The translations under genes and the position numbers were made by a program. The notes under the pieces are model-generated. The model searched no databases. It saw only the letters and a program-made list of their open reading frames with translations, and had not been told where the DNA came from. A DNA stretch of 64,000 nucleotides, taken from Solwaraspora sp. WMMD792 (lineage in GTDB: Bacteria; Actinomycetota; Actinomycetes; Mycobacteriales; Micromonosporaceae). Location of the stretch: NCBI RefSeq assembly GCF_029626105.1, contig NZ_JARUBH010000009.1, forward strand, positions 4,526,001 through 4,590,000, in the 5' to 3' direction. Positions within the stretch are counted from its first letter, which is position 1. Each line of letters opens with the position of its first letter. Positions 5,932-27,141 of the stretch are shown piece by piece.

Positions 5932-6816
5932 CTACCGTACGTACACCCATTGCTGGTTGCCGCCGCCCTCGCAGGGCCACAGCACTATCGGGGCCAGGTT
6001 GGCGGTGCCGTGGTTGATGACATCCACGCACTTGCCGGCGTGGCGGCTGACGATGAGCGGAGCAGTGTAGACGAACGCCTGCGCGCTGTTGCCGCTGCAA
6101 TAGGCGAGCTGGACCGGGTTCAGGTTGGCGGTGCCCCCGCCAGCGGCGTCCATGCACAACCCGACCGTCCGGATGGTGCGGTCAGCGAGGATCGACCACT
6201 GCTGGGTACGGCTGTCGGCACAGTTCTCGATGACGAGCTGGACGCCGTCCGCCCCCCACCGGCCGCTCAGGCACCGCTTGGACGCGGGGTTGTAGAGCGA
6301 GCCGACGGCTGCCGGACGCGGCGCGTCGGCGGCGAGTTGGGCGGTGGGTTGGGCAGCGGGTTGGGCGGCGGGTTTCGCGGGCGCGGGTGTGTTGGCCGGC
6401 GTGGCCGACGGACGGTCGGCAGCCGGCCTCGCCGACGGGTCAACCGGAGACGGCTTCCGGCCCGCTGCCGGGGTCACCGACGGGGCCACCGGGGACGGCG
6501 TCCGGACGGCTGTCGGAGTCACCGACGGGGCCACCGGGGACGGCGCCTGGCCGGCGGACGGTGTCACCGACGGCGGCTGCGACCCCTGCGATGATCGGGC
6601 AGCAGCGGCGGGCTGCGGAGGCTGCGGCGCGTCGGTGGCCGGTCCCAGCGCGGCCAGCACCGGCGGTACGGCGCCACCCAGCACGGCGAGGCAGGCCAGC
6701 ACCGCGAGGCTCGTCCACACGCGGCGGCCCGGGACCAGCCCGAGCCGCATCCGGGCCGGGCGGGCGGTGAAGACCTCCGAGAACGACCTCCCGGCCGCAG
6801 GCTCGTGGGACTGCAT
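5932..6816 (-). CDS. Membrane-anchored ricin B-type lectin (CBM13) protein
   Basis: The 294-residue protein has a basic N-terminus, one membrane segment at about 33-57 (VWTSLAVLACLAVLGGAV) and a Pro/Ser/Thr stalk with repeated SVTP...PSPVAP units at about 70-165. A ricin-type beta-trefoil follows at about 168-294 with QxW-like signatures RTQQWSI and NQQWVYV. It is expected to stand on the cell surface and bind carbohydrate. The ATG follows AGGAG. It is the last gene on the minus strand of the type VII-like island, whose kinase at 25537 carries the same lectin domain, so the two may recognise the same glycan. Confidence 0.8.
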   Translation of the reverse strand: MQSHEPAAGRSFSEVFTARPARMRLGLVPGRRVWTSLAVLACLAVLGGAVPPVLAALGPATDAPQPPQPAAAARSSQGSQPPSVTPSAGQAPSPVAPSVTPTAVRTPSPVAPSVTPAAGRKPSPVDPSARPAADRPSATPANTPAPAKPAAQPAAQPTAQLAADAPRPAAVGSLYNPASKRCLSGRWGADGVQLVIENCADSRTQQWSILADRTIRTVGLCMDAAGGGTANLNPVQLAYCSGNSAQAFVYTAPLIVSRHAGKCVDVINHGTANLAPIVLWPCEGGGNQQWVYVR

Positions 6817-6877
6817 CGGACGACTCCTATCAATGACGAGGTACCTGTAGTGCGGGACATCGGTCGTGCGGCACCGG

Positions 6878-9445
6878 CTACGCCGGTACCGGGCACTGCG
6901 GCAGGTCGTCGGCGTTGAGGCCGACCAGGTCGGCGGCTGCGGGGTCAGCGAGTTCGGCGACCCGCTGCGCCTGCCGTTCGGTCATCTCCTGAAACGTCTG
7001 GCGCGCCAGCCGACCGTTGCCGAAACCCTCCCCGCGTGGCAGCTGCGCGAAGAAACGTTCCAACCCGTCCCGGGCCGCGCCGGTCAGCTGGTAACGGTGC
7101 AGTTCGGCCTGGTACTCGACAATCGACACCAGCTCGGACGCGTCGTAGTCGGCGAACCGCATGGTGCGGGTGAACCGCGAGGCCAGTCCGGGGTTCGCGG
7201 CCACGAACCGCGTCATCTCGTCCGGATAGCCGGCGGCGATCACCACCACCTCGTCCCGGTGGTCCTCCATCAGCTTGACCAGCGTGGCGATCGCCTCGGT
7301 GCCGAAATCGTTGCCGCCGAACGTCGGCACGAGCGAGTACGCCTCGTCGATGAACAGCACACCGCCGATCGCCCGCCGGAACTCGGCCGCGGTGCGTGGA
7401 CCGGTGTGCCCGATGTACTCACCGACCAGGCTGCTGCGGTCGACCTCGACGAGGTGACCGCGCCGTAGCAGGCCGAGCGCCTTGAGCAGGCGCCCGTACA
7501 GCCGGGCGACCGTCGTCTTGCCGGTGCCCGGGTTGCCGGCGAAGACCAGGTGCCGGCTCAGCGGCGGGGCCGGCAGCCCGGCCTCCTGACGGAGCCGGAC
7601 CGTCTGCATCAGCTTCACCATCGCGGCCACGTCGCTCTTGACCCGGTCCAGGCCGACCAGCCGGTCCAGTTCGGCGAGCACGTCGTCGAGGTGCTCGTCG
7701 GGCGGATCCGGCTCCGACGACGCCGCGGACGGCACCACCGCGCCGGCCGCTGCCGTGGCAGGCACCGTCGGCGGCGGTCCGGGCACCGGCGACGTCGGCA
7801 TCGACGAGGTGGCCACGTCGTGCACGACGCAACGCTCGAAGACCGGGCGGGCACCGTCGTCGGTACCCAGATCCTCCGCGCAGTCGGTGATCCGGCAGTC
7901 GCGGAACACCGGGTCGGCCCGTGGCCCGCAGTGCACCGCCGGGAATCCGGCACCGGTCACGTCGCAGGAGTCGAACACTCCACCGGCGTCCCCGGCCACG
8001 AAGATGCCGTTCTTGGCGGGTCGGAACACGCGCAGGCCGGACACCTCCGGGCGTGCCCCGGTCCACACCACCAAGGCGGACCCGGCGCTGTCCTCGATCG
8101 TGCCGCCGTCGATCCGGGCCTGCCCACCGGAATCGACGACGATGCCGGCCGTACCGGCGAACACCACCCGGGTGTCCTGCAACCGTGCCGCACCGCCGTC
8201 GCCCACGTCGACCCCGGTCCGTCCCGGACGCTGCACCACGCAACCGTCCAGCTCGACCCCGACGGGTGAATCGACGCGAACCCCGATTTCGGTGTCGACG
8301 ATCCGGCAGCCACGGGCCGACAGTCCGGCATCCCCACGCACGTAGAGGCCGGTCATGGTGATGTCGGCGACGGTGCTTTCGACGAGCTCCGCACGGGCCG
8401 AACCGATCGCGTGGACACCATGCTCGGCACTGCCCCGGACCCGGCAGTCGACCAGCCGGACCACCACATCGTCGGTCAGGTGCACCGCGCTGAACCGGCT
8501 ACCGACCAGCCGGCAGTCGACCAGTTCGGCGGTGGCGGTGCCGGTTGCCATCAGGCTGTTCGCCCCGGCGTCGACGATCGAGCAGCCGACCGCAGCCAGC
8601 CGGGCACCGTCGCGGACGACCACGCCGCTGGCTGCCGGGGCGGTGAGCCGGCAGTCGGCGAGCGACACCTTGCCGGTGCCGCAGATCTGGATGGCGGCGG
8701 CGCCGGCGCCGTTCAGGTGCGATTCGACGGCCTTGACCACCGCCGCGTCCTCGACCGACAGTCCCATCCGGGCGGGGTCGCTGACCCGGCATTCGGTCAG
8801 TAACGCGCGGGAGTGTCCATGCAGGTGCAGTCCGGACCCGGTCGTCGCCGTCACGCGCAGCCGGGCCGCCCGGAGCACGGCGCTGCCGGACAGCGACACC
8901 CCGGTGCCGTCGATGTCACGTACCACGGTGTCCTCGGTCCGGGCCCGCACGGTGCCGGAGAGCGCGAGCGCCGTACCGGTGACGTTCGCGATCTGGACAC
9001 GGGTGAGCACCAACGCGGTGCCGTCGGACCCGGGGCCGTGCTCGCCGTCGCCGGGACCGTGCTCGCCGTCGTCGGGTTCGGTGGTCGCGGTCGCCTCGAC
9101 CCGGCCGCCCAGCACGGCACAGTCGGTCAGGACCAGGCCCGCACCGGCCGGCACGGCCACCGCGACGAGGGCCGAGTCCGCACCATGGATCTCGAACCCG
9201 ACGACCGTGCAGTCCGTCACGGCCACCGTCAGTGCCGGACCGGTCGCCGCCGGACGCAGAACCACACTGCCCGGTCCCTGCGCCGCCTGCAGCGTCACGG
9301 GTGTGGACAGGCACAGATTTTCCCGGTACTCCCCGGCGGGGACGCTGACCACGTCACCCGGGGCGGCGTCCCGCAACGCCGCAGCGATGGTGCGATGTCC
9401 GCGGAACGCGTTCCGGGTCACCCGCAGGACCTGTGCGCCGTTCAC
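6878..9445 (-). CDS. Right-handed beta-helix protein fused to an EccA/CbbX-type AAA ATPase
   Basis: This is an 855-residue protein. Residues about 5-560 form a parallel beta-helix of NosD/pectate-lyase shape: about 22-residue turns such as ALVLTRVQIANVTGTALAL and RLVDCRVRGSAEHGVHAIG. Residues about 600-855 are an AAA ATPase like EccA and CbbX, with Walker A GNPGTGKTT near 636, Walker B GVLFIDEAYSL near 696 and a sensor region RFTRTMRFADYD. The GTG start overlaps the stop of the giant gene (GTGA at 9442-9445). EccA-type ATPases act in the cytosol on type VII substrates; the beta-helix half may be the scaffold that binds the giant protein. Confidence 0.8.
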   Translation of the reverse strand: MNGAQVLRVTRNAFRGHRTIAAALRDAAPGDVVSVPAGEYRENLCLSTPVTLQAAQGPGSVVLRPAATGPALTVAVTDCTVVGFEIHGADSALVAVAVPAGAGLVLTDCAVLGGRVEATATTEPDDGEHGPGDGEHGPGSDGTALVLTRVQIANVTGTALALSGTVRARTEDTVVRDIDGTGVSLSGSAVLRAARLRVTATTGSGLHLHGHSRALLTECRVSDPARMGLSVEDAAVVKAVESHLNGAGAAAIQICGTGKVSLADCRLTAPAASGVVVRDGARLAAVGCSIVDAGANSLMATGTATAELVDCRLVGSRFSAVHLTDDVVVRLVDCRVRGSAEHGVHAIGSARAELVESTVADITMTGLYVRGDAGLSARGCRIVDTEIGVRVDSPVGVELDGCVVQRPGRTGVDVGDGGAARLQDTRVVFAGTAGIVVDSGGQARIDGGTIEDSAGSALVVWTGARPEVSGLRVFRPAKNGIFVAGDAGGVFDSCDVTGAGFPAVHCGPRADPVFRDCRITDCAEDLGTDDGARPVFERCVVHDVATSSMPTSPVPGPPPTVPATAAAGAVVPSAASSEPDPPDEHLDDVLAELDRLVGLDRVKSDVAAMVKLMQTVRLRQEAGLPAPPLSRHLVFAGNPGTGKTTVARLYGRLLKALGLLRRGHLVEVDRSSLVGEYIGHTGPRTAAEFRRAIGGVLFIDEAYSLVPTFGGNDFGTEAIATLVKLMEDHRDEVVVIAAGYPDEMTRFVAANPGLASRFTRTMRFADYDASELVSIVEYQAELHRYQLTGAARDGLERFFAQLPRGEGFGNGRLARQTFQEMTERQAQRVAELADPAAADLVGLNADDLPQCPVPA

Positions 9446-12400
9446 GCGACCTCCTTCTTCGGGTCGTCGTCCTTCTTCGGGTCGTCGTAGTGCGGTGGTG
9501 GCAAATGGTCTATCAACATCGGGTACGTGACGAAGTTGTACAGCGACTTCTCGCCTGACCTCATCACCAACTGGTGGAGGGTGTCCCCGATGCCGAGGGG
9601 GTTGTAGAGCCGGCCACGGGCGTAACCGACCCACGCGGTGGTGAGCACCGAACCGGGCAACCCGCTAGGAACCGACGCCAGGGCCAGGACGCCGCCGTAC
9701 TCCAACGCCTCCGAGAAGGTCGGGTCGACCAAGTCGCCGGCCTTGTTCTCGTACCCGAAGATGGCAGCGCTCGCCGTTCCGTAAATGAAGCTGGTGACGA
9801 CGCTGGTGCCGAGTCCGTAGAAGAAGTTGAAGGTGGTGCCCCGCCAGCGCACCGGATGGTCCGGCCCGGCCCAGTCGGTCCGCCAACTGTCGTCGTGGTT
9901 CAACGGGCGGCGGCTGGGGGCGTAGCCGCTGTCAAGGTTGCTCAGCCCCAGCCGGTAGTTGTGCAGCGGACCGTGGCGCCAGTCGATGAGCGCCGCCCCC
10001 AGACCGGACTTGACACCCGCGCCGACCCCGGCGCGCAGCAGGGCCTTTGCGACGTTCTCGAAGCCGAATTCGTCACCCGTGACCAGCGCCGCGAAGGCCG
10101 AGAACCCGAGACCCACCACGAACTCGAACACGAACTCGTAGCCGAAGTCGAACGCCATCTTCTTCAACACCAGCTCGGTGTACGACCGGTACGCCGCCTC
10201 GCCGAGCAGCGCGCCGTCGGGCCCGACTGCCGAGCGGCCCCACGGCATCCGGTGGATCTCGTGCAGCGTGCCGTTCCAGCCACGCATCGCCTCGAGCATG
10301 CCGCGATACTCGAGGTCGCGACCCACGATCGTGAATCTGCCCGGGTCGATCGGGCTCGTCGGGTCCGGGCTGAGGTAGATGTTGTGGTCCTCGCGGCGCA
10401 GGGCCACCAGAATGTCGTTCTCGCGGTAGACCCGCCACTGCCCGCGCCACGCGTCGGTCTCCTTGTAGAGGCCGGTCGGCAGCGGCTGGCCATCGAAACC
10501 GGTGAACTCCAAGGGCTTGCGGCTACGGACGACGATGCCTTGGTCGAACTCGTTCCACACCCTCCGGTCGGTGATGTCGGGGTACTCCCGCACGCGTGCC
10601 ACCGGAACGTCCGCCGGGATCTCACGGATCACCGTCCCGCCCGGACGACCGTCCCTGATCAGGTCCTGGAACCGGTTCGCACCGCTGACCCAGTCGTCGA
10701 CCCATTCGCCGGTGGGGCTGAGCCACTGACGTATCGGAGTGCCCTCGACCGGTTGCGGGAGGACCCGGCCGTGGCGGTCGAGCTTCTCCCAGCGCCACCC
10801 GAAGCGGCCGGTCTCCGGGTCGTAGTTCCGCCAGGCCCGGACGGTGTCGCCGTCCGCCAGAGCCCGCACGTCGCGGATCACCACGCCGTCGAAGAAGTCC
10901 TGGAAGGACTCGTCGTAGGTCATCGCCGGGTTCCTGGTGAACAGGTTGTAGACCCGATCGCCGCTATGGCCTTCGCTGTCGACCCACTGCCACGAGCGGT
11001 TGCGCAACTCCGCCACCGGCCGGAACCCGTCCCAGATCGAGCTGTCGTCCAGCGGCTTGGCAGCCACCCATCCGCCACGCGGGGCCGCCGGACCGGCGGC
11101 GGCCTCGGCCGGCGACCCGGCCGGGGTGGGGTTGGCGGGTGGTTCGTTCAGCTGCGGCCAGGTGTCGGCGCGACCGCCGACCAGGCCGTGCTTGCCGCGT
11201 CTGACCCAGTCCTGGCCCGCCAACTGCTCGGCGATCCCATCGGGCTGCGGCGGGTTGCGGAACTCCGTCACCGCCCCGTCCGAGTGGCCGATCCGCGCCA
11301 CCCGGAGGGTCTGCCCGTCCAGGAAACGGTCCTCCCAGGCGTGGCCCGCCCCGTCGAGGTCGACCCGCAGACCGGACCGCTCGCCACCGACGCCGCGCTC
11401 CGACCAGCGGTACGTCACCGTACCGGGCTCCGGTCGCAGGTCGACGGCGCCGGGGGCCACCAGGTCGTCGCCGACGGTCAGCGTGTTGCCGTTGTCCAGC
11501 TTGACGAAGGCCCGTTGGAACGAGCCGTCCGCGGCGATGTCGATGTAGCCGCCGTTGTACGTGGTGAACCTGGTGCCGCTGCCCAGCGGCGTGCCGTCGA
11601 CGGCGGTGGCGGTCCAGCGAGAGACGCGGAATCCGCTGTCTGCGGCAAGGTGCGGCCAGCGTTGCTGAAGCGAGTCCGGCACCACCCCGCTGAGGTGGCG
11701 GAGCCAGCCGGGTGGGCGTTGCTCCATCCAGCGTTCGACGGTCAGATGGCCACCGGTCGCCAGTTCGGTCTGGCTGCCGGTCACCGCCTTGCGCGGACTG
11801 ATCCGCTGCCACAGTTCCGAACGGTCCCACTGTCCCGACGGGGCCTGGACCAGGCCGTACTCGAGATACTGATGCTGCCGATCCGGCCAGGTGAACTTCT
11901 TCCACTTCTCGTGCACGAGCGCCCGGTCCGGCGAGCCGGCGGCCCCGAGGTGGTCGGTCCACCCACCGAACAGCTTCTGGGTACGCGGCCCGCTGGCCAC
12001 GTACGCGTTGGTCGCGTCGTCGAACCGGTGCCAGGTCCAGCCGCTGGCCGGGTCGTTCAGGGCGAGCACGTGGCCCTTGTGCAGTCCGGCCTGGAACTCG
12101 TGCACCTTCACCCCCGACGCCTCGTCCCACCAGTAGTTGCCGGTGACGTCGAAGTAGCGCGTGCCGCTGGCCACCTGCGCCCCGGTGTGGTCGGTGACCT
12201 GCCACACCGGCCATTTGTAGAACGCGACGAACGCCGGTGGGGTGAACGCGTTCAGCAGCCGCCCGTCGGGCAGTTCGATCGTTTCGAGGACCTTGAGGGC
12301 GGTGGCGTCCTGCCTGATGAACGTCGTCACGCCGCCCTCCAGACGCCGTTCGAACCCGGTCACGTCGTCCAGTCCGGCGGTCTTGAGCTCCCAGCCGCCG

Positions 12401-15400
12401 GTTCCGGTCCGGACCAGGAACTGGCCGTCCAACGAATGACCCTCGTGTCGCAGTGGGACACCGACCGAGGTGAGTCGATGATCGGCGTCGAGAAGGTGGA
12501 ACGCCCCGCCATCGTGGGTGATCCGCAGTCCCGCGCCGTCCACGTCCACGCGGTATCCGTTCATGAGCAGCCGGTTGACATCCTCGACATGCCAGCCCGG
12601 CCCGTCCATGTGCTGCACCAGAACGTGGTCCCGGAGCGGGTTGCCGGCCCAGCGGACCCCGTCCTCCCCGAGCCGCAGCGGACGGCCAATCGCAACGAGG
12701 TCACGGTCGCCGTTGAACCGGTGGAAAATCCCGGCGTCGTCGGTGACCTGCAGGACGTTCTTTTCCGCATGGACGGTGTAGCCGACATTCAGCTCGTCGA
12801 CGGTTGACCCCAGGTGCCAGGTCCTGGCGGATCGGTCCACCACCGCGTACATGCCGTCCAACGGATGGTCCCCGCGCAGCAGCAGACCGATGCGGCTGAC
12901 ATGAAGTTGATCGTCGAGCCGGTGCACGATGTCCCTGCCGTCGATCCGCCAGCCGCCCCCCTCCAGCCGTTCGACCCCGTACGTGTCCAGCTTGGACCGG
13001 GATGCATCCGTCAGGTACGGCGTACCGTCACCGGACGGCGAGACCAGATAGTGGTCCCGCAACGGGTGGCTCGTGCCCGCGACCTTCGTACCGGTGGCGG
13101 TGACGCTGAGGTCGTCGCCGACGACGTGGAACCCACTCCCGTCGACTTTTACGATCGTCATCGGCATGTCCCCGTCGGCGGGGACGAGGTGGTGTTCATC
13201 GTCCACCGTCCACGAGTCCGCCGACCGACGCTCGACCTGCCATGCCGCACTGTCGAGGTCCTGGACCAGGACGTGTTCCTGCGGGCCGCCGAGCGGCACG
13301 GACCGACCCTTGGCAACAGGAGTCCAGTCAGCCGCGAAACGGGCGAAACGGCCTTCCACGAGCACGATGTGCTTGCCTTCCGACAGGCCGTGGTATCCGG
13401 AGAGTGGTGTTTCGTCGGCGTTGACAACCTGCCAGGGCCCACCGTTCTTACGGAGCGCCTGCCCCGACGGGAGCAGCCAGGTCGGAAGGTCACGGCCCTC
13501 GGCGGTCACCACACCGTCCGGGCCGAACCGGAACCAGCCGGCTTCCGGCGACTCGACGATGAATTCGGATCCGGCTCGTTTCACCTCCTGTTGAATGCCG
13601 TTGCGTTCCAGCCACATGCTGTCCTCGGCGTGACCGCGCATGAAGAACCATCCGTGGCCGGCGACCCCGTCCCCACCGGAGATCCCGACCCCGGACGCCA
13701 CAGGCTCGTACCGATCGCCGTTGCGCCCGAGGCGGTATCGCCACACGTTCGTGTCGCCGACGATCGACGCCGTTCCACCAAACTCGCCGAGATTGAACGT
13801 GTAACTGGTCGGGGCGCCAACCAGATCCAGCACCTGGTACCCGGCCGGCTGACCCCCGGCGTCGCGTATCGGCTGCACCTGGAGGCCGATCGTCTCGTCG
13901 CGGAGCACACTGTTGCGGACCGGCGTGCCGCGTGGGGCCCCCACGCTCGGCTGCCCGTCGCCGCCCCCAATCATGGGGTTGTGCCAGGCACGTTCCCGGT
14001 CGATCCGGTCGGTGGCCGCGTGGGCGGCTTCGATGTCCACGTCCAGCTCACTCAATTTGTCTTCGAGCGCACGCATCTTCGCCGGCTGGCCGGTCAACCG
14101 GGCGGTTTCGTACTCCTGCCATAGCTCGAACCGCTGCGCCGTGATCGGGTCGTTGGCGGCACCGAAGATTCCCCGGTACAGCAGGTGCGACTGGCCGTTT
14201 TCCAGGTATCCGGCGAAAGGCCGTGGATGCTGATGCACCTGGGCGTGGACCGGCTCGGAGCGGACCGGGACCGTGGTCGGACGCGCTGCCGTCCCGGCCG
14301 TTTCCGGGACCGTTGCGGGGCGGACCGTGATGCCAGGCGTTACCGGCGTCGGCGTAGCACGCACCGCAACCCCGGCCGACTCCGCCGTCGGCGTAGCACG
14401 CACCGCAAGCCCAGACGTCTCGGAACGGACCACCGTACCGGCCTTTTCCGGCGTCATCGCACCGGTCGGCACCGATGGTGCCTCGGCCCGGCCCCTAGCG
14501 ACCAGGTCCAGCGCTGCCGCCTCGAGCCGCGCCATCGATCCACCGGGCAGAGTGGTCGCGCCGGACCCGGCGACGTCGACGGGGGTGGCACGGCCGAACC
14601 CGGTCGCACCCGATGGAACCGGCACGGCCACCCCCATGTCCGCAGCCGTCACCGTCGGCCGGGCCGTGGTTCCCACGGCGTGCTGGGCCTGCAGTCCCAG
14701 CATGCGCTGGTCGTGGGTGCTGGCCGCCACCGTGGGCAGGTCGGGGGTGAGCGCGCCGGGCTTGTGCGTGACCACCGAGCCGCTGCCGGGCAGCTCGACC
14801 GGGTGCATCGCCGCCCGTCCGGTCTGGGGCAGATGATGTCCGATGGCGGGCGCCACGTCGGGGCCGGACGCTGCGGTGACGACGACTTTGTGGGCCGACG
14901 GCGACTCGACCACGGAGGTCACGGTGTGTAGCAGTCCAGTGGAGAGGTCACCGGACGGCGCCGCCGACGGAGTGAGCAGGCCGCCGGGCGTGGTCGAGAA
15001 GCCCTTCGGCGTCACGTCGCCGAGCCATGCGCCGGTCTTCACCTGCGCCAGTTCGCTGCGGGTCAGGTCGACGAGAGCGTCCACCTGGTGGCTGACGTGC
15101 AAGCTGAGGAAGTGACTGTCGGTAATGGACATTCCACCGGCCGGCGGGTGAGGTCCGGGCCCGTGCGGCGTCATCCAGCTGGGGGGCAGGGCATCGAACA
15201 TCCTGGGGTGCAGCGGCCAGTCCGGGACCGCCAGGTGGACGAGCCGGCTGGCGGGCAGGTCGACAAGCGCGTCGACGGTACGGCTGGCCCCGCCGACCAT
15301 TGCGCTCCCACCACGCAGGGGCATCGACATGCCGAACAGGTACCTGCTGAAGATGCCCCGCTCGATGAGCGCGACCTTCATGGCCGGACCCACGCCGAGC

Positions 15401-16467: not shown

Positions 16468-16682
16468 TGTCGCGGCTCCAATCCTCTGGCAGGTGGGTCG
16501 TCGCCGACCCGGCGCGCACCGGCGCTGGGCCGCCTACCCGGACACGTTTGAAGGCCGCGACGGGTTCGGATCCCGGCGGTCGGCATGGAACGGATCACAC
16601 GGCCGGCCCCGGCGACACGAACCGGAGGACGGGCTCAGACGTGTTCTCACCGAGTGACCGGTCCAACGTACGGAGGTGGTGG

Positions 16683-17882: not shown

Positions 17883-17890
17883 CGATCCGG

Positions 17891-17930: not shown

Positions 17931-17932
17931 GT

Positions 17933-20900
17933 TCAGTCCCCGCGCAGCGCAGTCAGCGGCACCTGGACCGCCACCGCCGTACCGTGCGCCCCGGCGGTCC
18001 AGGCCCGACCGACCGGTGACACACCCCGCAGCAGGTTCATCGGCAACCGCAGACCGACCAGGTCGGCCTCGGCCGGCGTGCGCGGCTGGAACACCAGTCC
18101 CCGCCGGGACCGCTTCACCGCGCTGAGCCAACTGCCCATGGCCATGCTCAGGGAGTCGACCGCCCCCGCGCAGACCAGTGCCATACCGTGGTCCCGGCCG
18201 GTCGCCGCCACCTCGCGCAGCACCCGGTCCGCAGCGGTCGAGGCGAGCAGGTCCGCGTCGTCGACGAGCACCACCCGCGGGCCGGTGAGACTGTCCAGTG
18301 CCGACTGCACCGACTCCGCCGACGGGTCGGCGTCGGCCAGCAGGCGCACCGCCGGGTGCCGGCCGAGCGCGTGCAACGGCGACTCACGCGGGGTGAGGAC
18401 CACCAGAGCGGTCCCGCCTGCCAGCAACGACACGGCCAGTGACGCGAGTGCGTTGCTGCGTCCCGACCCGGTCGGCCCGGCGATCACGAACGTCGACGTG
18501 GCGCCGATCAGATCGACGGTGACCGGCCCCGCGTCGTCGTTGCCGACGCCGAGCAGTGCCCGCAACGGCCTGCGGTCCTCGTCCGGCACCCGGCCCAGGA
18601 CGTCGGCGAACTCGATCCGGGCCGGCAGGGCGGCGATCGGAAACGGTCGGGGGCCGACCGGGGCACCGACGCCGGACCGGGCCTCGGCGCCGATCCGCCG
18701 CAGCGCCTCCGCCTGCAGCTTGCCCGCCGGGTCGGCGGTGAGCAGCGCCACCTGGGTCTCGACCTGGTGGACCGCCTCCCAGCCCCGGCCGGGCGGCACA
18801 TGGGTCGGTGCCCTGCTCGGCAGGAACCCGACCGCCTGGTACTCGGCACGGTCGGACTGGCGCAGCAGCAGTTTGTGGTCGTTGAACGCGGCCAGCCGAC
18901 CGCCCAGCAGCGACCGTTCGGAGGTCATCACCAGGTGTATGCCGACCCCGGCGCCCTCCCGCAGCAGCCGGGACATGTCCTCGAGCAGCCGACCGTGGTC
19001 GTGTTCCTCCAGCAGCGGCACGAGGGCATCCCAGCCGTCGACGAGCACCAGCAGGTGCGCCGGACGCCGCGCGGCGGGGAGCAGCCCGCGCAACTCGGTC
19101 AGGCCCGCGCAGTGATGCTCGGCGCACAACTCCTGCCGTCGGCTCAGCTCCTGCCCGAGTCGGCGCAGCAGCCGCTCCACCCGTTCCATGTCGTGGCGGG
19201 ACACCACGGCGCCGCAGTGCGGCAGCGCCTCCACCGCGACCAGCCCACCGCCGCCCGCGTCAAGGCCGTAGACGTGCACGTCGCTCGGGTGCACGGCCCG
19301 CGCCACCGACCCGGCGATCGTGCGAAGCACCTGGGTACGCCCGGACCGCGGCGCACCGACCACGTACAAATGACCGAACGTGGTGAAGTCGATCACGGCG
19401 ACCTGTCGGCGCTGCATCGACGGCAGGTCCTGCAACGCGTACGGCACCGGCGGTGGCGCCGCCGGGACCGGCTGTTCCCGGGACACCGCCGGCAGGTCGT
19501 CGACGACCACGTGGTCGGGCAGCGGCGGCAGCCACGGGCTCGGCTGCGGCGGACAGTCCTCGAGCAGGTCGGCGGCCCGGACGATCGCGTCGACCAGCGC
19601 GTCCAGGTCGGTCGGGACGGGTTCGGGCGGGTCCGGTTCGACACCCTCGGGCACCGGGGTGGTGATCGGGCGACCGAGCCGTTGGACCGGAACCTCGGCC
19701 ACCGACACCGGCCGACGATGCTTGGCGGCACCCGTCGGTCGGGCGCCGGGACGCTCCGCGCCAAGGTACGCGGCCTGAAACGGGACCGGTTGCCCGGCGC
19801 CGGTGCGCACCAGCGCCCGCCCCGGCGTGGTGGGGGAGATCAGCCCCGCCTCGCTGGTCTCGATGACGTCCTGGCTCTCCCCGCTGTTGGTGACCCGCAA
19901 CGCGATCCGCAGATTGGTGTTGGCGCGGATGTCGGCGGTGACCACACCGGCCGGGCGTTGGGTGGCCAGCACCAGGTGGATGCCGAGGGACCGGCCCCGC
20001 TGCGCGATCGAGATCATGCCGGTGACGAACTCGGGCATCTCCCGGATCAGGGTCGCGAACTCGTCGATGACCAGGAGCAGCCGTGGCAACGGCGGAAGCT
20101 CGGTGCCGGTCGCCCGCCGGGCCCGGTACGCCGAATGGTCCTTGACCGCCGCCTCGGCGAGCAGATGTTCGCGCCGGCGCAGCTCCGCGGCCAGCGACTG
20201 CAGGGCCCGCTGGGCCAGGTGCGCGTCCAGGTCGGTGACCATGCCGAGGGTGTGGGGCAGCATCGCGCACTGCCGGAACGCGCTGCCTCCCTTGTAGTCG
20301 ACCAGGACGAAGGCCATCTCGTCCGGCCGGTTGGTGGCGGCCAGGCCAGCCACCAGCGACTGGAGCAGCTCCGACTTACCCGATCCGGTGGTGCCGGCCA
20401 CCAACCCGTGCGGCCCGTCGCGGACCAGGTCGAGAACCAGCGGCCCGTCGTAGCCGAGCCCGATCGGCACCGCCGTGCTGGCCGGGCGCCGTCGCCACCG
20501 TTGCACGACGGCGGCCGCCGTGGGTGGTTCGAGCGTGAGAAGGTCGAGCAACCGGGCCTGTTCGGGGAGGCCGCTGTCGCTGTGCGGGCTGACGTCGCGC
20601 AGCGGCGCGACGGAACGGGCGACCTGCTCACACAGTTGCACGGTGACCCGGTCGGGACGAATGTCGGCCAGGTCCGGCACCCCGCCGCGCCGCAGCACGA
20701 ACCCGTCCGCGTCAGCGGCCACGACGGCGGTGCACTCCTCGGGGAGGAGGCGTTCCCGCTCGTCGAGGCAGACGCTGAACACCCGCACCTGCGGCCCGGC
20801 GGTGAGGACCTGCACCAGCCCCGGCACGTCACGCATCCGGCGGGCCCCGTCGACGATCACCAGCAGATCCGGATCGGTGAACATCGCCCGCGACATGGAG

Positions 20901-22579
20901 GAGCCGAGGGCCCGTTCCCGGTTCTCGATCTGCGACACCAGTTCGGCGAGCCGGTTGGCGACGCTCTCCGGGTCGGTGCCGACAGCGACCAGCGGGCCGT
21001 TGGCGCCGATCGGCGCCGCGTGCGGCAGCCAACGCACCCAGGCGAACCCGTCGGCGCGGTCCGGCTCGGTGAGCACCACCACGCGCAAATCCCGAGGGCT
21101 GTGCAGGACCGCTGCCTGCAACAGCCACCAGCGGGCCAGTTCCCGGGTCGCGGCCGCGGTGCCGGCCACCCCGATCACGCCCGACTCGGCCACGTCCACG
21201 GCGATGCCGACGTCCGGCACGTTCCAGCGCACCTCGCCGCCGTCGTCGCGGGCCGGGTCGTCGACAGCCTTCGCGGACGGCTGGTCGACGGTGCCGATCC
21301 GCAGCACCAGATGGTCCGGGTCGCGGCGGCGACGTTCCCACAACCGGCTGCCCGGGCCGGTGGCGATCAGGGCCACCGTCGCCGGGTCCGGGACGGTGTG
21401 GTTGCGTACCCGCCGTTCGTGGCGCACGGCCCGGTGGATGGCACGGTAGGTGCGGCGCAGCCGGGCGCCGTAGCGGCGCCGGCTCTTCACCGCCTCCCTC
21501 CGGTTGGTCCGGCGGCCACCGATCCAGTTGGCCACCCCCATGACCGGGCTGAGCACGACGAACATGAAGTACAGGTACGACTGAAAAAGCCACACCATGC
21601 CCAGGCCCATCACCGCCGGTGCGGCGACCAGCAGCAGTGGGAACCGCGGCGGCGGCTGTGGGCCGGGTGGGGTCGGCAGCCGCACCCGGTCGGTGTCCAG
21701 GTGCGGAGCGATCCGCGGCGGGCGGTTGTAGTCGAGGCCGAATCCGTCGGCCGAAGGCACCACGGCGGCGTCCGGCTCGACCGGCGCGGTGAGGCGCAGC
21801 AGCACGGACCCCACGACCAGGTCCTCCCCGCAGGGCCAGGCGGTGGCGCCCGACGGCACGTCGGCCACGTCGACGTCGGCGGTCGTCGACGCCACCGGCA
21901 GGTGGGCCTCGTCGGGATCGTCGGGGTCGTCCTCGCCGGGGTCGGGTTCGCCGATGGGACGCCCGGTGAGCGGACTCGCCTGGGCGGGCGCGACGACGGA
22001 TGCCGCCCGGACCTGTTCGTCGATGTCGGCGGTGAGGTGCCAGTACGCGCCGCCGTGGACCGTGACGGTGACCCAGAGGCCGCCGGCCGGGCCGTCCGGG
22101 TCGGGGATCCGCACCGCGCACCGCTCGTCGTGGCCGATCTCGTGGCTGCCGGCGGCGAGCTGCCAGGTGCTGCCGGCGCCGGGGCCGCTGACCAGGTGCA
22201 CCTCGGCCAGCACCGGTTCGTCGGGGTGGGGCACGGCGCGCCGGACCTGGTCGACCGGTTCGACCGGGCCACCGACGCCGATCAGGGCACCGGCCCAGAT
22301 TCCGCTGTCACCCACCGTGGTGGCCGGGTCCAGTCGGCGTCCGCCGAGGAACAGCGGCCGACCGACCGGACCCCCGACGGACCGGCCACCACCGGTCGGG
22401 GCACGGTCCGGAGCGCCGGGGCGGCCGGCGGCGTCGGGTGTGTCGGCGGCCGGTGGGTCGGCGGTGGGTCGGTCGAACGCGGCGGCCAGTTCGCCGACGG
22501 TCATGGTCTGCGCGGCGTCCACCACCCGTTCCCGACGGTCGCCGTCGACCGCGTCGACTGTGGTGATCATCAGTCTCAC
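17933..22579 (-). CDS. EssC/EccC-type FtsK/SpoIIIE ATPase with ubiquitin-like and FHA N-terminus
   Basis: This 1548-residue protein is the motor of the type VII-like system. Residues about 1-85 look like a YukD/ubiquitin-like domain (VGELAAAFDR, PLFLGGRRLDPATTV). Residues about 120-175 are an FHA domain (AGSHEIGHDERCAVR). Two membrane helices lie at about 310-357. Three P-loop domains follow: GTTGSGKS near 729 (intact, with LLLVIDEFATLI Walker B), GAPRSGRT near 1076 and GPTGSGRS near 1367; the last two have Arg in place of the Walker Lys. An N-terminal FHA is typical of Firmicutes EssC, whereas actinobacterial EccC lacks it. The GTG start overlaps the upstream stop (GTGA at 22576-22579). Confidence 0.88.
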   Translation of the reverse strand: MRLMITTVDAVDGDRRERVVDAAQTMTVGELAAAFDRPTADPPAADTPDAAGRPGAPDRAPTGGGRSVGGPVGRPLFLGGRRLDPATTVGDSGIWAGALIGVGGPVEPVDQVRRAVPHPDEPVLAEVHLVSGPGAGSTWQLAAGSHEIGHDERCAVRIPDPDGPAGGLWVTVTVHGGAYWHLTADIDEQVRAASVVAPAQASPLTGRPIGEPDPGEDDPDDPDEAHLPVASTTADVDVADVPSGATAWPCGEDLVVGSVLLRLTAPVEPDAAVVPSADGFGLDYNRPPRIAPHLDTDRVRLPTPPGPQPPPRFPLLLVAAPAVMGLGMVWLFQSYLYFMFVVLSPVMGVANWIGGRRTNRREAVKSRRRYGARLRRTYRAIHRAVRHERRVRNHTVPDPATVALIATGPGSRLWERRRRDPDHLVLRIGTVDQPSAKAVDDPARDDGGEVRWNVPDVGIAVDVAESGVIGVAGTAAATRELARWWLLQAAVLHSPRDLRVVVLTEPDRADGFAWVRWLPHAAPIGANGPLVAVGTDPESVANRLAELVSQIENRERALGSSMSRAMFTDPDLLVIVDGARRMRDVPGLVQVLTAGPQVRVFSVCLDERERLLPEECTAVVAADADGFVLRRGGVPDLADIRPDRVTVQLCEQVARSVAPLRDVSPHSDSGLPEQARLLDLLTLEPPTAAAVVQRWRRRPASTAVPIGLGYDGPLVLDLVRDGPHGLVAGTTGSGKSELLQSLVAGLAATNRPDEMAFVLVDYKGGSAFRQCAMLPHTLGMVTDLDAHLAQRALQSLAAELRRREHLLAEAAVKDHSAYRARRATGTELPPLPRLLLVIDEFATLIREMPEFVTGMISIAQRGRSLGIHLVLATQRPAGVVTADIRANTNLRIALRVTNSGESQDVIETSEAGLISPTTPGRALVRTGAGQPVPFQAAYLGAERPGARPTGAAKHRRPVSVAEVPVQRLGRPITTPVPEGVEPDPPEPVPTDLDALVDAIVRAADLLEDCPPQPSPWLPPLPDHVVVDDLPAVSREQPVPAAPPPVPYALQDLPSMQRRQVAVIDFTTFGHLYVVGAPRSGRTQVLRTIAGSVARAVHPSDVHVYGLDAGGGGLVAVEALPHCGAVVSRHDMERVERLLRRLGQELSRRQELCAEHHCAGLTELRGLLPAARRPAHLLVLVDGWDALVPLLEEHDHGRLLEDMSRLLREGAGVGIHLVMTSERSLLGGRLAAFNDHKLLLRQSDRAEYQAVGFLPSRAPTHVPPGRGWEAVHQVETQVALLTADPAGKLQAEALRRIGAEARSGVGAPVGPRPFPIAALPARIEFADVLGRVPDEDRRPLRALLGVGNDDAGPVTVDLIGATSTFVIAGPTGSGRSNALASLAVSLLAGGTALVVLTPRESPLHALGRHPAVRLLADADPSAESVQSALDSLTGPRVVLVDDADLLASTAADRVLREVAATGRDHGMALVCAGAVDSLSMAMGSWLSAVKRSRRGLVFQPRTPAEADLVGLRLPMNLLRGVSPVGRAWTAGAHGTAVAVQVPLTALRGD

Positions 22580-23802
22580 CGGTCGGTCGCCCCTCTTCCG
22601 GTCGACACGGAGTACGCCGCGTTTGCCCGCCGGGCGGCGGCCTCCTGCGGAGTGGCGGCCAGCAGATCGGTGGGGACCGTCCCGGCTGCGGCGGAAACAC
22701 CCAGGCCGGCGAGGTGCATGGTGTCGGCACCGGCCAGGGTTTCCGACCCGGAGCCGGAACCGGGGTCGTGGAGCGCGGAGCGGCCGAGAGCCGTGTCGCG
22801 CCATTCCCCGACCGGTTCGAGCGGACCCGCCGGCGGGGTGTACGGCGGAACGTGGGGCAGCACCCGGGCCAGCGCCGCGGGCAGTGCGGTGACGGCGACG
22901 GACAGTGGTGTGCCGTGGACGGTCAACCATCCCGCCCCGTCGACGGTGAGCATCCGTACCCGGCCACGCCCCGGGCCCCGTACCAGCAGCCGCGCATTCG
23001 AGTCGGGCGGTGGGTCGACGGACGGGTCCGTCGCGCAGACCGCCCACCGGGGCCCCGGCTCTCGCCGGGTGAGCACCGCGCTCGCCAGCTCTGCGGTGGC
23101 GCCCCGGTACCGCGGGTGGACCCCCTCGGTGACCAGCACCGATCCGGCAGGCAGGCGCCGGTCGAGCTGCGCGGCGAGGGCCTGGAGCAGCACCGTCGCC
23201 GTCCGGGGATCGCCGTCCACCGACACCCGCGCGGGCCCCTGTGCGAGGTCGAGCAGGGCGATCCTTCGATCGGCGAGGCCGAGACCGACAAGCAGGACCG
23301 TCGGGGCGCCGGGTGGCTCCTGGGCGAGCGTGGCCGCGTCCGGTCGGGACAGCCACCACAGTCGCGGGTCCTCCTCGTCGGCCGTCCACGGCACGGGCGG
23401 AGCCGGAACGTCCCGGCCGAGCACCAGCACCCCGACCCGGTCCTCCTCGATCAGCGCCCCGTACGGCTGAGCAGGTGGGTGTCCACCCGGGCCGGGCCGC
23501 CCGGCGGTGGTCCGGTAGGCGTGTCGAATCGCCCGTTCGGCGTCCTGCCACACGTCCGGGCGGCGCAGCACCGCCCCGAGCAGCCGCCGCTGGCTGCGGT
23601 ACCGCAGCCAGCGGCGGACCGGGGTGACGTAGGCGGCCACGGTCAGTGCCGTCTCGCTGCGCAGCCGCCGAACCACCGCCGCCCACCCGCCGAAGCGCGA
23701 CGCCAGCCGGTGCGCGAGGACGACCGCCAGGATCAGCAGCGCCGCCAGGCCGAGGACCCGGGTGAACAGGGCGGTGTCCCCGAACAGGCCCGGGGTCCTC
23801 AC
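22576..23802 (-). CDS. Membrane protein partner of the secretion ATPase, unknown
   Basis: A 408-residue protein with a hydrophobic segment at about 12-37 (LFTRVLGLAALLILAVVLAHRL), then a basic region and a long soluble domain with YGALIEEDRVGVLVLGRD and TVLLVGLGLADRRIALLDL. It is locked between the sigma-factor gene and the ATPase gene by GTGA overlaps at both ends, so it is part of the machine. The layout recalls EccE (N-terminal membrane helix, large soluble domain), but I see no diagnostic motif and do not assign that name. No EccB, EccD or MycP homologue is present in the window. Confidence 0.7.
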   Translation of the reverse strand: MRTPGLFGDTALFTRVLGLAALLILAVVLAHRLASRFGGWAAVVRRLRSETALTVAAYVTPVRRWLRYRSQRRLLGAVLRRPDVWQDAERAIRHAYRTTAGRPGPGGHPPAQPYGALIEEDRVGVLVLGRDVPAPPVPWTADEEDPRLWWLSRPDAATLAQEPPGAPTVLLVGLGLADRRIALLDLAQGPARVSVDGDPRTATVLLQALAAQLDRRLPAGSVLVTEGVHPRYRGATAELASAVLTRREPGPRWAVCATDPSVDPPPDSNARLLVRGPGRGRVRMLTVDGAGWLTVHGTPLSVAVTALPAALARVLPHVPPYTPPAGPLEPVGEWRDTALGRSALHDPGSGSGSETLAGADTMHLAGLGVSAAAGTVPTDLLAATPQEAAARRANAAYSVSTGRGATDR

Positions 23803-24392
23803 GCGGCCATCCCACCGTCGAGCTGGGCGCGCAGGCAGCGAACGGCGGTGAAGGTCCGGGACTTGACGGTGCCCGGCGGAATGCCCAGGTGACGAGCTGC
23901 CTCGTCACCTCCCCTGCCGAGCAGGTAGAGCTGGGCGATCACCTCCTGCTGCGGTCGGGAGATGCGCCGCAGCGCGTCGACGAGGACATGACGGTCCACC
24001 ACACCGTCGGCGACGTCGCGGACCCGGGGGGCGGTGACGAACGCCTCGGCGGCGATGCCGACCGGCGCGGCGCGGTCTCGGCGCCGACTGTCCACAGCGA
24101 GGTTGTGCGCGATCCGTAGCAGCCACGGCAGGATCGGGCGGGTCCGCCACTCGATGCGGTCGGCGTAGATGAACGCCCGCAGCAGTGCCTCCTGCGCGAT
24201 GTCCTCGGCCAGATGCAGGTCCGGGGCGAGCATCTTGGTCAGGTAACGCAGCAACGGCTGTCGTTGCGCAATCAGATGTTCACCCAGTGTCTCGTCGGGT
24301 GCCGGTTCTTGCGTCGGTGACCCTTCGGCGTTGGAAGTCACCATGTCCGCCGCTCGTCGGTGGTGCCCTTTTTGGACGATAGAACGGTTCAT
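23799..24392 (-). CDS. ECF RNA polymerase sigma factor heading the secretion operon
   Basis: This 197-residue sigma-70 family protein has region 2 at about 40-105 (LLRYLTKMLAPDLHLAEDIAQEALLRA; pieces: AEDIAQEALLRAF, PWLLRIAHNLAVD) and region 4 at about 135-190 (RISRPQQEVIAQLYLLGRGGDEAARHLGIPPG; pieces: QQEVIAQLYLLG, GTVKSRTFTAVRCLRAQL). I chose the ATG at 24392 (MNRSIVQKGHH) for its GAGGG ribosome site; an ATG at 24344 is possible. Its stop overlaps the membrane-protein GTG. No anti-sigma factor is adjacent, so control may come from the nearby kinase and FHA proteins. Confidence 0.85.
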   Translation of the reverse strand: MNRSIVQKGHHRRAADMVTSNAEGSPTQEPAPDETLGEHLIAQRQPLLRYLTKMLAPDLHLAEDIAQEALLRAFIYADRIEWRTRPILPWLLRIAHNLAVDSRRRDRAAPVGIAAEAFVTAPRVRDVADGVVDRHVLVDALRRISRPQQEVIAQLYLLGRGGDEAARHLGIPPGTVKSRTFTAVRCLRAQLDGGMAA

Positions 24393-24728: not shown

Positions 24729-24733
24729 GTACC

Positions 24734-25540
24734 ATGCCACCCTGGCGGGAACAGGAAATCACCACCCCGCTGCTGACGGTTACCTACGTGGCGGCACCCG
24801 ACGATCCCAGGCAGAACGAAGTGTTCGAGTTCTTCGTCGACGGTCAACGCCGCACATTCGGTCGGGACCGCTCGTGTGACATCGTCATCTGGTCGGCGAT
24901 GAACACCCAGAAACTGACCCGGGTCGCCGGAGAGATCTGGCGGTCCGAGGGTGAGCTGTGGCTGCGCAACCTCTCCACGTCCCACGAGCTTTTCGTCACC
25001 GAACCCGGCCAGCCCGCCGAGGAACCGTTGCGTCGCCGCCCGGACCGGCATGCCCGCGGGTACGCCTGTTCGATTCCGGCACCGGTCGCCACCGTCACCG
25101 CCCCCGACGGGTGCCGGCTCGACGTCCATCAGTTGCACCAACCCTCGCCCGCGGTGCTGCAACCGGTGGACGAGGATCCGACGGTGTCGGTGGTGCCGGA
25201 CGTGCCACCCCAGTTCCGGCGGCTGGCGGCCGCACTGTGCGAGCCGTTGCTGTCGGGCAGCGTGCTGCCCGCCGCGTACCGGGAGGTGATGGCCAGGATC
25301 GGTCAGCCCAGTCTCAAGATCGTGCGCAACGACGTCGCCCATCTGTGCTCGGTGTACACGAAGGCCGACCCGCGGCTGGCCCGCCGGGTCAACGAACGAC
25401 GCAACGCCAACGCCCACCAGGCCCGACGCCTCACCGGCCTGACCCTGCCCGACTACTACGAGGTGGCTCTGCTGCTGGTCCGGTACCAGCGGATAACCCG
25501 GGACGATGTTCACCTGTTGGCGATCTCGGAGGGTGGATGA
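24734..25540 (+). CDS. FHA-domain protein paired with a Ser/Thr kinase
   Basis: A 268-residue cytosolic protein. Residues about 15-110 read as an FHA phosphothreonine-binding domain (RRTFGRDRSCDIVIW, then SEGELWLRNLSTSHELFV). The C-terminal half (about 155-260) has a basic helical domain with LKIVRNDVAHLCSVYT. The gene overlaps the kinase gene (ATGA at 25537-25540), so the FHA protein is the natural reader of that kinase. It may carry phospho-signals to the FHA-bearing ATPase system or the sigma factor across the divergent promoter. Confidence 0.8.
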   Translation: MPPWREQEITTPLLTVTYVAAPDDPRQNEVFEFFVDGQRRTFGRDRSCDIVIWSAMNTQKLTRVAGEIWRSEGELWLRNLSTSHELFVTEPGQPAEEPLRRRPDRHARGYACSIPAPVATVTAPDGCRLDVHQLHQPSPAVLQPVDEDPTVSVVPDVPPQFRRLAAALCEPLLSGSVLPAAYREVMARIGQPSLKIVRNDVAHLCSVYTKADPRLARRVNERRNANAHQARRLTGLTLPDYYEVALLLVRYQRITRDDVHLLAISEGG

Positions 25541-27141
25541 ACAGCCGGGCCGGGGAGCCGGACCATGCAGCGACGGACCCGCACCCGCCGCTGACGGATC
25601 CGGTGGCACCGCAGCCGGTGACGAGCCACGAACGACCCGACCCGCCGCCCGGATACCGCTTGGACCGGCTCCTCGGCAGTGGCGGCCAGGCGCAGGTGTG
25701 GGCGGCGCGCAGCGAGCCGCTGGACCTGCCGGTCGCGCTGAAGTTCTGGCCGCCGGATCTGCACGAGCACGATCGGGGCCGGATCCGACGTGAGATCGAC
25801 GTGCTGCGCCGGCTCGCCGGACACAACAACATCGTACGTCTTCTCGACGCGGAGACCCGTCCGGACGCGGCACCGTGGCTGGCTACCGAGCTGTGCGACA
25901 CGTCGCTCGCGGCGGCGCTGCGGTCCGGTTCGATCCCGGTCGACGACGCGTTCACGGTCGCCGACGACATCCTGACCGGTTTGGCCGCGGTCCATCAGAT
26001 CGGCCACCTGCACCGCGACGTCAAGCCCGCCAACGTGCTGCTGCACCACGGCCGGGCCAAGCTGTGCGACCTGGGGCTGGTCGGGCAGATCGACCACTAC
26101 ACCCGGATGCACTTCTCCGGCACCGCCTACTTCCTCGCCCCGGAACTGCGCACCTGCCAGCCGACGGTGGCCAGCGATCTGTACGCGGCCGGTCGCACCC
26201 TGGAGGCCCTGTTCGAGGTCGCCTACGGTGCGTCGTCGGTACCGCCGGCCCTGGAACGGCTGCTCACCCGGGCGACATCGGCCCGCCCGCACGACCGTCC
26301 CGCCGACGCGGAGGCCTTCCGGCAGGCGGTGGCGTCGTCCCGGTTCGCCGACGGCACCGGTCCCACCACGACCCGGCCGGACGGCGCTGGGACCGGGCGG
26401 CGGCCCGGCCGGTACCTCGTGACGATCGCGGCGGTCACCGTCCTGGCACTCGGGGTTGCCGGATGGGCGGTGACCGAGGACCGGCGGTCGGCATCAGCGG
26501 TGCCGGCGGTGCCCACGACACCGACCGTGCCGCCGACACCAACGGCACCGGGCGCGCCCTCACCGGGCGCGACACCGACCGTGCCGCCGACACCAACGGC
26601 ACCCAGCGCTCCCCCGACGTCCGCGACACCGACCGTGCCGCCGACACCAACGGCACCGGGCGCGCCCCCACCGTCCGCGGCACCGGGCCGGCTCACGGCA
26701 TCGTCGACGACGACCAGTTCCACAGCGCCCAGCCCCGCCGTAGTGGTCGCCCCGTCGAGTGCGCCGCAGCAGATCCAGAGCCTGTTCGCCAGCCGCTGCG
26801 TCGACGTGCGCGGACCCGATACGCGGGACGGCACCCCGTTGCAGCTGTGGGACTGCATCAACGCACCGGAGGAGCGCTGGGTCTGGGACGGCGCGCGGCT
26901 GCGGGGGTTCGGCGACAAGTGCATCAGCCTGCCCGACGACACGGCCCGCGACGGCACTCCCGTCCAGCTGTCCACCTGCACCGACGAGCCCCGGCAGCAG
27001 TGGCGCCTGGAACCGTCCGGGGAGCTGCGCGGGCTGCACGACAAGTGCCTCGACGTGCGTGGCCCGGAAGCCGGAAACGGCACCCCGTTGCAGATCTGGA
27101 CCTGTGTCGACGTTCCGCAGCAGCAGTGGCGCCTGTTCTGA
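25537..27141 (+). CDS. Receptor Ser/Thr protein kinase with extracellular ricin B lectin domain
   Basis: This 534-residue protein has a kinase domain at about 35-270: Gly loop LLGSGGQAQVW, Lys in VALKFW, catalytic loop HLHRDVKPANVLL, and DLG in place of DFG (LCDLGLVGQ). A membrane helix lies at about 293-312. A stalk contains three tandem copies of an 18-residue TPTVPPTPTAP unit. A ricin-type beta-trefoil occupies about 407-534 with three QxW marks (EERWVWD, RQQWRLE, QQQWRLF). This is a PknB-like sensor topology with a sugar-binding ectodomain. The start is set by GGAGG and by the overlap with the FHA gene. Confidence 0.88.
   Translation: MNSRAGEPDHAATDPHPPLTDPVAPQPVTSHERPDPPPGYRLDRLLGSGGQAQVWAARSEPLDLPVALKFWPPDLHEHDRGRIRREIDVLRRLAGHNNIVRLLDAETRPDAAPWLATELCDTSLAAALRSGSIPVDDAFTVADDILTGLAAVHQIGHLHRDVKPANVLLHHGRAKLCDLGLVGQIDHYTRMHFSGTAYFLAPELRTCQPTVASDLYAAGRTLEALFEVAYGASSVPPALERLLTRATSARPHDRPADAEAFRQAVASSRFADGTGPTTTRPDGAGTGRRPGRYLVTIAAVTVLALGVAGWAVTEDRRSASAVPAVPTTPTVPPTPTAPGAPSPGATPTVPPTPTAPSAPPTSATPTVPPTPTAPGAPPPSAAPGRLTASSTTTSSTAPSPAVVVAPSSAPQQIQSLFASRCVDVRGPDTRDGTPLQLWDCINAPEERWVWDGARLRGFGDKCISLPDDTARDGTPVQLSTCTDEPRQQWRLEPSGELRGLHDKCLDVRGPEAGNGTPLQIWTCVDVPQQQWRLF
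26521..26682 (+). repeat. Three tandem 54-bp repeats in the kinase stalk
   Basis: CCGACCGTGCCGCCGACACC begins at 26521, 26575 and 26629. The 54-base period encodes an 18-residue Pro/Thr/Ala unit. Such stalk repeats span the cell wall and can change copy number by slippage. Confidence 0.85.

Follow-up and report, generated by a model that had tools for sequence, protein, structure and literature searches.

The island at positions 5932-27141 of this stretch of Solwaraspora sp. WMMD792 DNA (contig NZ_JARUBH010000009.1; the whole 64,000-nucleotide stretch is called the window here) raises the question of what kind of machine is built around its large FtsK/SpoIIIE-type ATPase. An earlier note on the same DNA proposed a separate branch of type VII secretion with an EssC-style motor. 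We conclude that the island is probably a compact, undescribed type VII secretion subtype in Actinomycetota, with an EssC-like motor to which a ubiquitin-like (Ubl) domain is fused; type VII secretion system (T7SS) subtypes c and e-j were compared by their published descriptions. Gene models, domain matches, tree position, co-occurrence and motif counts were observed directly. No report of this subtype, of a Ubl-ATPase fusion or of a link to Tad pili in Actinomycetota was found in the open-licence literature, subscription papers and preprints being outside the scope of that search.

The placement of the motor is central to this conclusion. Matches to the EssC model occurred in 44 genomes, of which 36 were taken with their neighborhoods, one (L056) contributed its ATPase only, one was the window's own genome and six were left out; the partial L013 was excluded from the trees. 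In a tree of 64 ATPases (1186 columns), with three rows of Bacillota-type EssC as outgroup, EccC formed a single clade (14 rows, support 100) and 47 actinobacterial EssC-like ATPases, including that of the window, formed a third clade (support 100). A 30-row tree under a mixture model agreed (EccC 100, EssC-like 100, and 100 for the subclade of the window, termed W), and a 49-row tree with further loci agrees in placing the motor outside EccC and inside the EssC-like clade; all three are quick searches, supported by the Shimodaira-Hasegawa-like approximate likelihood ratio test only. Against the family models the ATPase scores 572 bits for EssC (cut-off 778), 333 for EccCb (347) and 429 for EccCa (509; 400.9 in a second scan), all below cut-off. 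These results support membership of the window ATPase in an actinobacterial EssC-like clade distinct from both EccC and Bacillota-type EssC, and with the co-occurrence of its neighboring genes they bear out the EssC-style motor and the separate branch that had been proposed.

Might the island nonetheless belong to an ordinary ESX system (T7SSa)? It shares with ESX an FtsK-type motor, a WXG-like partner and an EccA-type AAA protein; it differs in its motor outside EccC and in the lack of EccB, EccD, EccE and MycP, which were found at none of the 47 EssC-like loci. These loci cover about 6-37 kb and were searched with one reference set, and therefore the control figures are low (among 14 EccC loci, EccB was recovered at 5, EccD at 12, MycP at 6 and EccE at 1) and the absence of EccE is weakly tested. 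T7SSa is recognized by EccB, EccD and MycP accompanying the motor and by an ATPase within EccC, none of which the island shows; what it does have is an EccC/EssC-type FtsK ATPase with several P-loop domains, one broad mark of type VII secretion. The absence of EccB/D/E and MycP claimed by the earlier note thus holds for the island and not for the genome, in which eccB lies at three other loci, five ATPases exceed the EccCa cut-off, and Pfam searches of ten proteins of those loci returned EccD, EccB, EccE, subtilase and YukD domains. The note had said that its proposal would fall if the ATPase branched within ordinary EccC with eccB/D/E elsewhere in the genome; the latter genes do exist, and the decisive half, branching within EccC, was not seen. 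The three eccB loci leave room for a decaying ESX copy that borrows EccB/D/E from elsewhere in the genome, but the motor lies outside EccC in three trees and below the EccC cut-offs, the island genes keep open reading frames and other genera carry the set as well, so that we regard decay as highly improbable. ESX membership was rejected on the three trees and the count of 0/47. One further locus of the genome (L020, G000 C9 5218000-5237999) carries EccC, EccD and a subtilase; the three EccB matches of the genome all lie elsewhere.

The motor comprises a YukD-like Ubl domain (residues ~1-106), a degenerate FHA-like region, two transmembrane (TM) segments (314-332 and 336-354) and three FtsK-type domains (D1-D3). 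Its solved relatives by sequence include 4nh0, YukB and EccC5, the first of which we take to be the EccC of T. curvata. Over 32 aligned ATPase N-termini Pfam found FHA in 17, the FHA-like Yop-YscD in 22 and YukD in 5 (best 1.4e-4), and a profile of the first domain matched the Ubl of the genome's own EccD proteins at 89.5% in hhalign, as against 0.1% for a reversed-profile control. We therefore read the N-terminus as a YukD-like ubiquitin fold followed by an FHA-like domain, as the earlier note had suggested for this motor, with the FHA-like part degenerate. All nine W ATPases retain the Walker A lysine in D1 and have arginine in its place in both D2 and D3, as compared to lysine in 14/14 EccC proteins at both D2 and D3; D1 alone may normally use ATP. 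The window ATPase resembles T7SSb in scoring highest against the EssC model, and differs in falling below that model's cut-off, in having Ubl-like and FHA-like domains instead of two FHA domains, and in an adjoining membrane protein, p408, that was unmatched to one EssB.

The Ubl, elsewhere the separate protein EsaB/YukD or a domain of EccD, would here be fused before the FHA-like domain of the motor. A survey of type VII systems gives a Ubl component for every subtype except T7SSd and describes the EccD Ubl of ESX-5 as docking on EccC (PMC11217815); by analogy, the Ubl of the island might dock in cis on the first nucleotide-binding-type domain. A Ubl-like domain within an actinobacterial motor is thus a place to seek the Ubl that the survey leaves missing. 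An actinobacterial fusion of a YukD-like Ubl is known from EccD, where an earlier account joins YukD to 12 TM helices (PMC1779556); here the fusion partner is the ATPase.

The following features make up the island.

5932..6816, reverse strand: ricin-B lectin protein, 294 residues, with one N-terminal hydrophobic segment (Pfam Ricin_B_lectin, 1.1e-21)
6878..9445, reverse strand: right-handed beta-helix joined to an EccA/CbxX/SpoVK-type AAA ATPase, 855 residues (Pfam Beta_helix 2.6e-31, AAA, AAA_lid_6)
9442..16467, reverse strand: giant putative secreted effector, 2341 residues (T7SS_signal PF21725, 30.1 bits, cut-off 27; N-terminal DPTPGDP motif)
16468..16682, no strand: predicted divergent promoter region with two outward AAC-N17-CGT motifs of extracytoplasmic function (ECF) type
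16683..17549, forward strand: p288, putative co-secreted partner, 288 residues (no Pfam match; family at 9/9 W loci)
17577..17882, forward strand: p101, WXG100-like small protein, 101 residues (GLVLKQSTP where W-x-G is expected)
17933..22579, reverse strand: EssC-like FtsK/SpoIIIE ATPase, 1548 residues (family models, trees)
22576..23802, reverse strand: p408, one TM segment (12-30) and a cytosolic domain, 408 residues (domain common to Tad-locus proteins)
23799..24344, reverse strand: ECF sigma factor (start at 24344 or 24392; 4-nt overlap with p408)
24734..25540, forward strand: FHA-like protein (weak match, E 0.037, below cut-off)
25537..27141, forward strand: Ser/Thr kinase with TM segment and ricin-B lectin (Pfam domains)

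All ten genes are called from codon bias together with family matches. The sigma, p408 and ATPase genes run leftward, joined by 4-nt overlaps, and the best start of the ATPase is the GTG at 22579 because several relatives open with the same M-x-L pattern. The effector and beta-helix/AAA genes also run leftward, the start of the latter lying over the effector stop in a 4-nt overlap, with the lectin gene next; p288 and p101 run rightward, as do the FHA-like and kinase genes from 24734. This evidence bears out the named parts as real genes, and the recurrence of the set in other genera goes beyond chance. Across the nine loci of subclade W the ATPase, p408, p101 (WXG-like), p288 and effector families are each present in 9/9. 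The ECF sigma gene lies directly upstream of p408 in six, the beta-helix/AAA gene adjoins the effector in all eight whose stretch reaches that end (that of L040 ends short), and a lectin-family gene follows in 6/7 loci covering that place (the window, L017, L122, L125, L127 and L123; not L048), the stretch of L046 ending before it. The core genes are present at three additional W loci as well (L166, L167, L169), and the sigma gene at two of these (8/12 in total); the p288-like gene of L169 has the right place and size without a BLAST match, and the effectors of L166 (an assembly gap), L167 and L169 were seen only in part. The search in other genomes that the note had called for thus found the set together at nine W loci in several genera and at three more.

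The carriers are scattered. Homologs of p408 were found in 2/41 genomes including the window's own, in none of six congeners, and in 11/300 genomes of the family including its own, one match being spurious: that in G166 has no such ATPase adjoining and was set aside. A tblastn search against plasmids returned 43 records, the 16 best spanning 77-95% of the ATPase at 39-54% identity; these relatives lie in Streptomyces, Embleya and Curtobacterium, and their motor is annotated as FtsK/SpoIIIE or not at all, never as type VII. In S. clavuligerus the W set lies on pCLA1. Scans of genome contigs and viral contigs gave two and no relatives, respectively. The island may represent a candidate route of secretion in actinomycetes, one with a motor that the annotated plasmid records examined name simply as an FtsK/SpoIIIE domain-containing protein.

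Of the described subtypes, T7SSd (Garrett, Higginson and Palmer 2024; PMC11217815) invites close comparison. It occurs in Actinomycetota and comprises the FHA-bearing TsdC, the kinase TsdD, TsdH and the large TsdI; TsdC keeps its phosphothreonine motif, and no Ubl has been found for T7SSd. The island could be a T7SSd member, given the same phylum, an EssC-type ATPase with an FHA region, a core lacking EccB/D/E or EssA/EssB/EsaA (EssA and EsaA were not searched for here), kinase genes in the window and in L167, and a kinase family near 10/47 EssC-like loci. As far as that account describes TsdC and its partners, the window is set apart by the Ubl-like domain on its ATPase, the lost FHA site, p408, the giant effector, the beta-helix/AAA protein and the ECF sigma factor. 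The four phosphothreonine-site residues (R/S/H/N) are kept in 6/6/5/5 of six group A ATPases, 13/13/12/13 of 16 in group B (counting L095, a row with no N-terminus), 3/2/3/2 of 16 in C2 and 0/0/0/0 of nine in W; nor does any further gene family occur in at least three W loci as a TsdI or TsdH candidate. We consider T7SSd membership unlikely. One locus of group A, L052 (Rothia terrae plasmid p2), does resemble the published T7SSd, with an EssC-like ATPase, an intact FHA site and adjoining kinase and RHS/DUF6531 genes.

The same counts bear on the phospho-signalling that had been suggested as a property of the branch. The island does contain the ECF sigma and kinase genes as claimed, the kinase with a ricin lectin; the FHA reader is present as a match that is weak and below cut-off, and its gene has no match in other related loci. 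The kinase plus ricin-lectin gene occurs at one of nine W loci (the window) and at L167, or 2/12. With the phosphothreonine residues lost in 9/9 W ATPases and the kinase at 2/12 loci, phospho-signalling is unsupported as a conserved feature and is rejected as a defining property of the branch; since the close relative L167 carries the kinase and ricin-lectin pair, a link to a kinase is possible for some of the subclade. At L167 (10979-13963) a ricin-lectin gene and a kinase plus ricin-lectin gene adjoin the sigma gene of the W locus.

What might such a machine secrete? The 2341-residue protein, which the earlier note had taken for a putative effector, has its T7SS_signal match in its N-terminus, and hydrophobic segments near 173-191, 292-310 and 2112-2130. 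The DPTPGDP start motif is found in most effectors compared from the C clade, and in group C2 the signal is above cut-off in 5/8 effectors. The W effector body aligns through to the end in five whole proteins, at 25-35% identity to the window, and Pfam found no toxin domain in the four of these that were scanned; the body therefore looks unlike a tip-swapping toxin. The C2 effector of L042 has a marginal Gln_amidase toxin tip (24.2 bits, cut-off 24.1), and no trusted solved relative of the effector body was found. The EccA-like AAA fused to a beta-helix was recovered as claimed through its Pfam domains, although with 227 bits it falls below the EccA cut-off of 467. In the Streptomyces sp. NBC_00019 plasmid (L047/L127) the effector-family gene has ~6345 codons by annotation, with beta-helix and RICIN-domain genes coming after it.

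Two WXG-sized helical proteins had been noted earlier. Only the 101-residue one is WXG-sized, and W-x-G is absent together with a Pfam WXG100 match; the p101 family has GLVxxQSSP-like residues at that position, and the homolog in L047 is annotated as a WXG100 family type VII secretion target. Members of the p288 family are conserved at the start and rich in T/D/G at the end. We propose that p101 and p288 may be co-secretion partners of the giant effector, helping to present its N-terminal signal, and that the beta-helix/AAA protein might handle this substrate, to which it is coupled in translation; the function would presumably be contact with or antagonism of other cells. Alternatively, the island might be an anti-phage or DNA-translocation (FtsK/HerA) system: in PADLOC the ATPase matched mad8 and SspH, and the kinase matched PD-T4-6 and mad6. 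These matches lie in the shared P-loop or kinase domain; the 333-572 bits against the EssC/EccC models and the effector with its T7SS_signal are stronger or more specific, and we give this alternative scarcely any credence.

Expression of a type VII cargo set could be governed by the ECF sigma factor, which may activate back-to-back promoters of the effector and p288 operons. In the window, outward AAC-N17-CGT motifs lie at 16620-16642 (forward strand) and 16544-16566 (reverse strand), and AAC-N17/18-CGT faces outward on both strands between effector and p288 at 8/9 W loci (16/18 strands; L166, L167 and L169 are outside this count), the pattern having been chosen post hoc on the same sequences. 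Background was 5-34% per strand in shuffles and 26/199 in 180-nt pieces of the window. The motif is present at two loci with no nearby sigma gene and absent at one such locus, and it is not evident upstream of the sigma gene itself (3/6 loci).

The membrane protein p408 raises a further question, that of what replaces the usual channel. We suggest that p408 may take over the role of membrane partner from EccB/D/E or EssA/EssB/EsaA. Nineteen relatives of p408 share 7 invariant columns, and the W and C2 forms align at 99%. A profile of the p408 domain matched 114 of 394 genomes of the class, many matches lying in open frames of ~750-1830 codons. At the first three long-protein loci examined the protein closes a Tad pilus locus in 3/3, with an EssC-like ATPase adjoining in two; the TadA, TadB/C and TadE/G families were confirmed at L164. 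Twenty more, hand-picked along the score list, gave Tad genes at 14 (one of them a single TadC at the edge), an EssC-like ATPase at 8 and both at 4; edge fragments in L177, L179 and L181 that match the ATPase at 30-303 bits were left out of these counts, and in L186 the gene caller had missed the p408 gene. Seven loci pair Tad genes with an EssC-like ATPase (L164, L165, L173-L176, and L012 from Actinomadura soli); since a single genus accounts for five (L164, L173-L176), the seven represent three lineages, which in the 49-row tree branch from three different points of the C clade. In L164, L165 and L173-L176 the long TM/p408-domain protein ends the pilus genes. No Tad genes were seen at W loci within the stretches covered, and the W p408 domains form one group of 13 (support 99).

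These data fit a Tad-linked ancestry of p408, the trees being unrooted as to direction. We speculate, tentatively and with more doubt than confidence, that the EssC-like type VII systems and Tad pili of actinobacteria share a TM/p408-domain component serving both machines, that the C-clade ancestor, a system with a Ubl-fused motor, operated alongside a Tad pilus, and that the island of the window is a streamlined descendant keeping p408 only, gaining its cargo set (giant effector, p288, beta-helix/AAA, lectin, ECF sigma) and spreading on plasmids and islands. T7SSg and T7SSh of Bacillota likewise have Tad pilus genes adjoining a type VII motor, and the survey left the meaning of this neighborhood undecided for the two subtypes (PMC11217815); here the phylum is Actinomycetota and one protein family is common to Tad and motor loci, which makes the link testable.

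Alternatively, p408 might be a membrane regulator or sensor that tunes expression rather than a secretion component. Long proteins that contain the domain have a BTAD match at the C-terminus (above cut-off in L172, below it in L164, none in L165), and p408 directly follows the ECF sigma gene in 8/12 W loci; on the other side, p408 lies at most three genes from the ATPase in 19/25 C-clade loci, some of them with no sigma gene found, and its short forms have no Pfam BTAD match. A regulatory role is therefore possible though doubtful in our view. EccB, EccD, EccE and EssB were rejected as identities of p408, hhalign giving less than 1% for all (0.1-0.2% for one EssB) with reference sides of one to three sequences. 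Against ATPase domains, p408 aligned with the first domain of EccC at 62% over 53 columns, with that of its own clade at 12% and with D1-D3 at 1-14%, which is suggestive only. No trusted solved relative was found, the best match being a universal stress protein (E 0.0064). The C2 p408 proteins presumably have a LysM-like ectodomain, judged by eye; Pfam finds no LysM in them.

Several points weigh against reading the island as a type VII secretion subtype of its own. Secretion, partner binding, energy use, the sigma target and function are all inferred from sequence, and p408 may be a regulator because its domain occurs in BTAD-bearing proteins. The first 330 residues of the window ATPase have no Pfam match, and the Ubl profile was built from 11/20 N-termini, nine having been dropped when an end pattern missed them. 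The trees were made without a named TsdC, and the control recovered EccE and EccB at just 1/14 and 5/14 EccC loci. Partner and cargo are affected as well, p101 lacking a Pfam WXG100 match and, among four other W effectors scanned, T7SS_signal being below cut-off in L048 and L166 and unmatched in L017 and L046.

The surroundings of the island suggest mobility. The right flank, from ~27244-27290, is conserved in 6/6 congeners. One of these genomes (G005) has, between a tRNA-Arg and the right flank, a 150-bp piece sharing 95% identity with the 3' part of the window kinase-lectin gene; this remnant reads as the scar of a lost island. To the left lies an integrative element of ~14.4 kb (-8658 to 5870, G000 C9) with an FtsK-type gene, which we take to be TraB-like. 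A 131-bp direct repeat (96%), within which the 3' half of tRNA-Arg lies, marks the two ends of the element; given an intact tRNA-Arg(ccg) at -8658 to -8585, the tRNA-Arg(acg) at 5695-5788 is a pseudo-copy with an altered 5' half.

A second odd type of locus was also seen, in the same genome (L021, G000 C9 6222000-6241999) and on a Streptomyces sp. NBC_01455 plasmid (L055). It combines an EccC-type ATPase, WXG-like small proteins, a beta-helix/AAA-related protein and a giant protein of at least 2327 residues (~5170 codons by annotation in L055); L021, at which there is no EccB, also encodes a 474-residue protein with a YukD domain.

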